Below, in pieces: positions 57,580-59,211 of a stretch of DNA of 61,296 bases (position 1 is the stretch's first letter; the number at the start of each line of letters is the position of its first letter). The notes under the pieces were generated by a model. That model saw only the letters and a list, made by a program, of their open reading frames with translations, was not told the DNA's origin and searched no databases. The translations under genes and the position numbers were made by a program. This stretch comes from Thermodesulfovibrionales bacterium. Its GTDB lineage: Bacteria; Nitrospirota; Thermodesulfovibrionia; Thermodesulfovibrionales; SM23-35. The stretch lies in NCBI GenBank assembly GCA_031082155.1, contig JAVHLL010000005.1, positions 46,114 to 107,409 on the forward strand. Direction: 5' to 3'.

Positions 57580-57954
57580 ATGAAAAGGATTCTTATCCTC
57601 ATGATCTTATGCCTGATCCCATCTTCTGTATGGGCTCAGCCGGCGATAACGATTGATGAACAGACTTATGATTTTGGGACGATAAAGCCAACCGCTTCAA
57701 TTGCGTACGATTTCGAATTTTCCAATAACGGCACAGAAGACCTTGTGATCGAAAAGCTTGTCCCATCCTGAGGGTGCGAAGCAGCGGTGGCCAGTTCGAG
57801 CCGCCTGAAACCCGGCGAAAAAGGATCTATTTCTGTAAAAATAGATCTCCGGGGAAAGATGGGGCAATTGACGAAAACCGTGCAGGTTTTCTCAAACGAC
57901 CCGTATAAAAAGATTCTCACACTTGTGATCAAAGCACTCATACAACCGCAATAA
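57580..57954 (+). CDS. DUF1573 exported protein, candidate selenoprotein (in-frame TGA)
   Basis: Read through one TGA (57769-57771), this gives 124 residues: a signal peptide (MKRILILMILCLIPSSVWA), then a complete DUF1573 domain: TYDFGTIKPTASIAYDFEFSNNG, EDLVIEKLVPS, TGA, GCEAAV, LKPGEKGSISVKIDLRG, VQVFSNDPYKKILTLVIKALI. In DUF1573 proteins this spot reads SCGC, so the TGA falls exactly on the first conserved Cys, giving S-U-G-C. A bacterial SECIS-like hairpin follows. If TGA is a stop, the product is a 63-residue fragment and the gene is broken. DUF1573 proteins are periplasmic beta-sandwich proteins of unknown function. No close ribosome binding site is seen. Confidence 0.72.
57769..57813 (+). 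promoter_or_regulatory. Candidate bacterial SECIS element
   Basis: Directly after the TGA, GGGT (57772-57775) can pair with ACCC (57810-57813) as a lower stem. The upper stem is GGTGGC (57786-57791) with GCCGCC (57800-57805), six pairs with one G-U, capped by an 8-base loop CAGTTCGA carrying G and U. The loop G lies 22 bases after the TGA, within the range expected for SelB-binding bacterial SECIS. selB, selA, selC and selD are not in the window. Confidence 0.6.
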
Positions 57955-58074
57955 CTCAGTCTTCACTTCTCTTCCAGACTGCACCTGCGAACAATTTTAT
58001 GGGTAGTACAGAATAAAATAAAGTATGTGTCCCCTGATAAGAACGATCATAGTGTTTCTTTTCATGAGAACAGG

Positions 58075-58080
58075 TACAAT
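58075..58080 (+). promoter_or_regulatory. Candidate -10 box giving a leaderless mRNA
   Basis: TACAAT (58075-58080), then six bases (ATTTAT), then the ATG of the small Cys-rich gene. There is no ribosome binding site before that ATG, so transcription may start at the start codon. The -35 region is weak. Confidence 0.45.
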
Positions 58081-58086
58081 ATTTAT

Positions 58087-58338
58087 ATGGCGCTGAAAGA
58101 TCAATGTCCTGGAAGCAGAGAAATACGGGTTCCTTATCCTGAAGAAATTGCCTGTCTCTGGTGCGGCACAGTATCGGAGATATGGTCTGATGAGGTTGAA
58201 ATCTTCTGTAAAGGGTGTGGGAAGAGTATATCGAGGGAAATGAAGTCAACCTGCATCGAGTGGTGTCCCGTCGCCAGAGAATGTATCGGTCAGGAAAAAT
58301 ATGAGAGACTCATGAAAGGCCTGAAAAAGAAAACCTGA
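58087..58338 (+). CDS. Small Cys-rich (zinc-finger-like) protein
   Basis: An 83-residue protein with one CxxC pair (CLWCGTVSEIWSDE, then FCKGCGKSI) and later Cys (CIEWCPVARECIG). The pattern CPGS...RVPYPEExACxWCG...EIWSDEVE...CKGCG...CIEWCPxAxECIG is familiar from small proteins of anaerobic bacteria and archaea, without a name I can give. Probably binds one or two metal ions. The frame extends upstream to 58027, but the ATG at 58087 (MALKDQCPGSREIRV) matches the conserved beginning. Confidence 0.8.
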   Translation: MALKDQCPGSREIRVPYPEEIACLWCGTVSEIWSDEVEIFCKGCGKSISREMKSTCIEWCPVARECIGQEKYERLMKGLKKKT

Positions 58339-58479: not shown

Positions 58480-59211
58480 ATGTTAGGGAAAATGATTCTT
58501 TTTTTACTTATCTCTCTAGGCATTTTTTCTGCCGGAGCATTTATTTCGGGTGCTTCATCAGCGCAGACACTCTCCTGTTCAAAATGCCATACTGATATCG
58601 AAAAAGGCCATAAGTATAAGCATCCTGCGATAAATCTGGGGTGTTCCTCATGCCATATGCCAGGGGATGGGAGGAACCATCCAAAAGACAAGGAGAGCAT
58701 GAAGCTAAGATTCAACATACCGCAGCTTTGCTTCCAGTGTCATAAGGAAAAGAAATTCACAGGCAAGTATGTCCATCTGCCGACAGAACGGGCTATGTGT
58801 ATGATGTGTCATGATCCGCATCATTCGGATGTTGAGGACTTGCTCAGAAACGAGCCACAGGAACTCTGCTACCGATGTCATGCGAAGGAAAAATTCACCA
58901 AGAAATATGTCCATAAGGTGGCATTGGGCGGGTGTGGATTACGGTGTCATAGCCATCACGCCAGTGATTACTCGCATCTCCTTTCTTCTGACATCGGCGA
59001 TTTATGCATCGGATGTCACAGGATTCAGGAGTCCGGTTCCCATATAGTCTCACTGCCGGGAGGGAAAGTTCATCCCGTATTCTCGGAAAAAGACCCCAGG
59101 AACCGCAAACAAAAAATGACTTGTACAAGCTGTCATAACCCGCATTGCTCGCAATACCATAAATTGTTTACTTACAAGCGTATTTGTGGCAGGTGCCATA
59201 AAAGTTATTAA
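58480..59211 (+). CDS. Multihaem c-type cytochrome (eight CXXCH plus one CX3CH)
   Basis: A 243-residue periplasmic cytochrome with a signal peptide (about 1-28, core ILFLLISLGIFSAGAFISG). Haem motifs: CSKCH 33, CSSCH 55, CFQCH 84, CMMCH 107, CYRCH 130, CIGCH 176, CTSCH 215 and CGRCH 236, plus CGLRCH at 152-157, a CX3CH form. The modules around CHDPHHSD and CHNPHCS resemble doubled-CXXCH (NrfH/Omc-like) repeats, suggesting electron transfer. The start may be 58480 or 58492 (AGGG before). There is no partner gene beside it. Confidence 0.93.
   Translation: MLGKMILFLLISLGIFSAGAFISGASSAQTLSCSKCHTDIEKGHKYKHPAINLGCSSCHMPGDGRNHPKDKESMKLRFNIPQLCFQCHKEKKFTGKYVHLPTERAMCMMCHDPHHSDVEDLLRNEPQELCYRCHAKEKFTKKYVHKVALGGCGLRCHSHHASDYSHLLSSDIGDLCIGCHRIQESGSHIVSLPGGKVHPVFSEKDPRNRKQKMTCTSCHNPHCSQYHKLFTYKRICGRCHKSY

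Follow-up and report, generated by a model that had tools for sequence, protein, structure and literature searches.

The predicted selenocysteine gene and its product

The gene analyzed here lies in a window of 61,296 nucleotides (the whole stretch of DNA that was analyzed) and consists of 63 codons, one in-frame TGA, 60 further codons and a TAA stop at 57952–57954 (Table 1). When translated through the TGA, the product matched the DUF1573 profile PF07610 over positions 1–96 of 98 (E = 3.5e-23), scoring 81.9 bits against a Pfam gathering cut-off of 26.1. Translation and the profile match thereby bear out the original prediction of a DUF1573 reading frame with a single TGA and a 60-codon continuation at these coordinates. 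The product also aligned with the NCBIfam model NF041425 (OS_HP2_seleno) over positions 2–97 of 98 (E = 6.3e-21), a full-length homology whose score of 74.6 bits lies below the curated cut-off of 100 bits. With Sec64-Gly65-Cys66, where Sec is selenocysteine, the predicted protein has within its pfam07610 domain the motif published for OS_HP2, UxC (UGC). A scan for promoters and terminators at the gene found none.

Export is predicted from a hydrophobic N-terminus that ends in a VWA/Q junction, where the signal peptide would probably be cleaved; the same ..A-QP layout is common to the homologues. In an AlphaFold2 model of the protein (pLDDT 92), the N-terminal region forms a helix at residues 2–17 and the domain adopts an Ig/PapD-like fold, in which the Sec-Gly-Cys motif is located at the turn between strands 55–62 and 66–71. 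The closest solved folds were 2qsv, HYDIN and OCRL-type PapD/ASH domains. Fold searches with the model returned generic Ig, PapD-like and HYDIN domains only and gave no functional lead. Downstream of the gene come a small Cys-rich ORF without a Pfam or NCBIfam match and then a multihaem CXXCH gene.

Table 1 Features of the Sec-DUF1573 locus and of the second tRNA-selB pair in the host genome (G000; contig C35). Positions without a contig name are those of the window.
Feature	Position	Strand	Details
Sec-DUF1573 (OS_HP2-type) gene	57580–57954	+	124 residues, Sec at residue 64; single-domain, exported (predicted)
Predicted signal peptide region	57580–57636	+	MKRILILMILCLIPSSVWA, then QP
In-frame TGA, predicted Sec	57769–57771	+	Sec-Gly-Cys motif at residues 64–66
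Lower stem of the original prediction	57772–57813	+	GGGU 57772–57775 / ACCC 57810–57813; forms here, not conserved
SECIS-like upper stem-loop	57786–57805	+	GGUGGC - CAGUUCGA - GCCGCC; arms 57786–57791 and 57800–57805, loop 57792–57799 (folding); loop starts 21 nt after UGA
Small Cys-rich ORF	58027–58338	+	CxxC...CxxC; between the DUF1573 and multihaem CXXCH genes
Multihaem CXXCH protein gene	58480–59211		about 500 bases downstream of the DUF1573 gene
tRNA-Sec-like gene, Cys anticodon GCA	G000:C35:118549–118639	−	T before CCA (U73-type discriminator)
Second full-length selB	C35:116653–118506	−	tRNA-Sec-like (GCA) gene directly upstream

Conservation of the TGA and of the downstream frame

A total of 346 genomes of the phylum were searched, and a DUF1573 homologue was found in 97. 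In 75 of these genomes a homologue contains TGA within the match, and TGA is the only type of stop found inside these matches. Once the sequences were extracted and aligned, the TGAs fell into one column, which is occupied by a Cys codon in the remaining homologues; in the alignment the TGA thus coincides with the leading Cys of the SCGC motif of the family, as had been proposed. A scan of GTDB contigs matched Cys forms only, because its query pattern had been back-translated with Cys codons. One homologue, L032 (G330:C31:5357–5719), has two in-frame TGAs; the additional one precedes the Sec TGA, occupies a column where other homologues have Gly, and may be a sequencing error, a nonsense mutation or something else.

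The orthologue in a genome of the same genus is 90% identical and keeps the TGA, and its downstream frame is intact, free of the random stops and frameshifts whose presence in close relatives would, by the original prediction, have refuted a selenoprotein. Pooled over nine pairs, pN/pS was 0.21 after the TGA and 0.27 before it. Purifying selection thus acts on the part of the gene behind the TGA no less strongly than on the part in front of it.

A conserved hairpin directly downstream of the UGA

The original prediction had described a two-part, SECIS-like hairpin downstream of the TGA. Both parts form in this sequence, and the upper stem and loop are conserved among TGA-containing relatives, whereas the lower stem has all four pairs in just 8 of the 65 Sec homologues and was rejected as part of a SECIS element on this ground. 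Folding of the single sequence over 48–54 nt was no better than that of shuffles (z about −0.1) and was rejected as SECIS evidence. The 20-nt upper hairpin alone stands out with z = −2.7, for a region chosen after the fact. What makes the hairpin convincing is its conservation across species, which is seen in the upper stem and loop but not in the lower stem.

Across 65 distinct UG-type Sec homologues, the six upper pairs were formed in 87.9% of cells, compared to 79.3 ± 1.3% under a synonymous-codon null (0 of 1,000 as high), figures that, like the other hairpin statistics, give strength rather than formal p-values because related sequences are non-independent. In this null, codons were redrawn from the same alignment column for the same amino acid. 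All slid registers of the upper stem scored far lower (0.20–0.47), and compensatory changes, on both sides, were found at five of the six upper pairs among the Sec homologues. The loop G is invariant (65/65) and is followed by U in 61 of the 65. At least five of the six upper pairs were present in 55 of 65 Sec sequences versus 2 of 16 Cys sequences, and a synonymous-recoding fold test pointed in the same direction as the pairing test, with a mean z of −1.0 for Sec forms and +0.2 for Cys forms. In homologues with a UxxC motif this hairpin is shifted downstream by one codon; the codon-redraw test on these ten sequences was not significant (82 of 1,000).

The element resembles described bacterial SECIS elements (PMC1088965) in being a coding-region stem-loop directly 3′ of the UGA with a small apical loop and a conserved G, while its loop consensus, (A/G)GUUC, is peculiar to the Sec-DUF1573 family.

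Selenocysteine machinery of the host genome

The host genome (2.65 Mb in 56 contigs, 100% complete, 2.1% contamination) was searched for selA, selB, selC and selD, as the original prediction had advised, and all four were present: a tRNA-Sec with anticodon UCA, selA, two full-length selB genes and two selD genes. Both selD genes themselves contain an in-frame TGA close to the N-terminus with a hairpin after it, and two formate-dehydrogenase-alpha-like (FdhA) matches contain one in-frame TGA each. The machinery and these other TGA-containing genes together indicate that decoding of UGA as Sec is general in the organism. Across the phylum, selA was detected in 67 of the 75 genomes with TGA-DUF1573 versus 6 of the 22 Cys-only genomes (Fisher p = 3.8e-8). 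Among the eight TGA-DUF1573 genomes without detected selA, selB was found in three, and tRNA-Sec(UCA) in two of the others (G142 and G246). One selB of the host is less than 6 kb away from selA, so that one assembly gap could lose both.

The second selB of the host lies next to a tRNA-Sec-like gene with the Cys anticodon GCA, and the pair resembles the described selC* tRNA-Cys (tRNA-ReC) with selB*. The longest ORF of this selB extends into the tRNA gene, and a 2-hydroxyacyl-CoA-dehydratase-like gene and a Sec-containing selD are found nearby (L012). Several genomes of the family have the GCA gene, and several others have the UCA tRNA alone. Recoding of UGA with Cys is reportedly the subject of a 2018 study by Vargas-Rodriguez.

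Decoding of the UGA and alternative explanations

The UGA is very probably decoded as Sec at this locus, whose product would be a periplasmic DUF1573 protein with an Ig-like (ASH/PapD-like) domain and the motif Sec-Gly-Cys. The computed basis for this assignment is the position and conservation of the UGA, the purifying selection downstream of it, the hairpin with its invariant loop G and the full set of Sec machinery. A nonsense mutation of TGC to TGA, leaving a truncated DUF1573 pseudogene, takes a single-base change and looks identical in the codon alone, but the TGA is common to 75 genomes, almost all without a further stop, purifying selection continues past it and the hairpin is specific to the TGA forms. 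We rejected the pseudogene on the shared TGA and the downstream selection, and consider its probability negligible. A variant genetic code with TGA as a standard sense codon for Trp or Gly would likewise account for read-through of the gene. However, a neighboring ORF terminates at TGA (58336–58338), the column in homologues holds Cys, which is neither Trp nor Gly, and dedicated Sec machinery is present, and this explanation was rejected on the same three points as having practically no chance of being correct.

A further alternative accepts that the UGA is recoded and differs in the residue, which would be partly or mainly Cys, delivered by the tRNA-Sec-like GCA tRNA (tRNA-ReC or selC* tRNA-Cys type) together with the second SelB. 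It draws on the GCA gene of the host, which has a U73-type discriminator and immediately precedes the second selB, and such tRNA genes have been described in Nitrospirae and elsewhere (review), but five relatives with TGA-DUF1573 (G128, G246, G306, G221 and G330) have a single tRNA-Sec match, with anticodon UCA (E ≤ 1e-9), which shows that the trait does not depend on the Cys tRNA. The co-occurrence of selA with TGA-DUF1573 also points to Sec, and we regard insertion of mainly or partly Cys as very improbable. Dual decoding of the same UGA, as Sec via SelB and tRNA-Sec(UCA) and as Cys via the second SelB and the tRNA-ReC-type tRNA(GCA), is unlikely; if true, selenium supply could determine whether DUF1573 carries Sec-Gly-Cys or Cys-Gly-Cys. 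Given the GCA gene and the second selB in the host, residue 64 may be Cys in a small fraction of the protein, which would not change the conclusion that the UGA is recoded.

With the UGA read as Sec, synthesis would follow the known bacterial mechanism: SelD would supply selenophosphate, SelA would form Sec-tRNA(UCA), and SelB would bind the hairpin and bring this tRNA to the UGA. The chain would then be exported by the Sec route and fold into the Ig-like domain, where the Sec-Gly-Cys pair could serve as a selenenylsulfide redox couple or as a soft-metal (Cu/Hg-like) ligand. Its partners in electron exchange may be periplasmic proteins, for example c-type cytochromes.

Motif variants and domain fusions among relatives

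UGC-type relatives include proteins with a C-terminal cytochrome c domain; L026, L028, L038, L043, L046, L066 and others, from sister families, have this arrangement, with two CxxCH motifs. A UxxC variant of the motif (URRC, UKRC, URAC or UKAC) occurs in L074, L076, L083, L087, L088, L104, L105, L106 and L108; the motif named for Sec-DUF1573 in the reviews considered here is UGC alone, without UxxC. UxxC-type relatives are either fused to SCO1/SenC or placed C-terminal to a carboxypeptidase-regulatory-like domain. Their loci have NosD, an ABC transporter and a redoxin in common, and most include a cytochrome bd-type subunit. These fusions and loci suggest a copper or respiratory function for the UxxC type. 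The TGA is kept and the second Cys is missing in L072, L107 and L108 (UGADA, UGSRA and UKRAT), so that Sec would act there without its usual partner; L108 has two DUF1573 domains in tandem, with a TGA in each. Based on the motif and on the fusions to cytochrome c or SCO1 among relatives, we infer that Sec-Gly-Cys may take part in electron transport in the periplasm, as a redox site or a soft-metal site.

Relation to the OS_HP2 family

The original prediction was not aware of DUF1573 as an established selenoprotein family; it is one, OS_HP2, described in 2007–2008 and represented by NCBIfam NF041425; a study of the ocean selenoproteome from 2008 (PMC2398784) lists it with pfam07610 and the motif UxC. 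Reviews of 2022 and 2026 (PMC9312934, PMC13188914) list it as 'DUF1573 domain-containing protein, UGC'. The protein analyzed here shares with OS_HP2 the domain, the Sec-Gly-Cys motif and the column in which Sec is placed, and all 34 aligned homologues matched NF041425; its own score below the cut-off of that model marks it as a divergent lineage. While the reviews give one example sequence, the present set covers 75 genomes of one phylum. Cys-form DUF1573 proteins (SCGC) agree with the Sec form in fold, motif position and signal peptide, but have a Cys codon for the TGA, lack the conserved hairpin and are found mostly in genomes without selA. The Sec-DUF1573 protein is thus a new, divergent and well-supported member of the known OS_HP2 family, and represents neither a new family nor a new mechanism.

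Automatic annotation cuts the Sec-DUF1573 gene at the UGA, so that in the annotation of many genomes of the phylum this conserved selenoprotein is likely shortened or absent. Taken together, the Sec forms, the Cys forms and the fusions to cytochrome c and SCO1 offer a handle on the role of the DUF1573 CGC motif, which may lie in periplasmic redox or copper handling.
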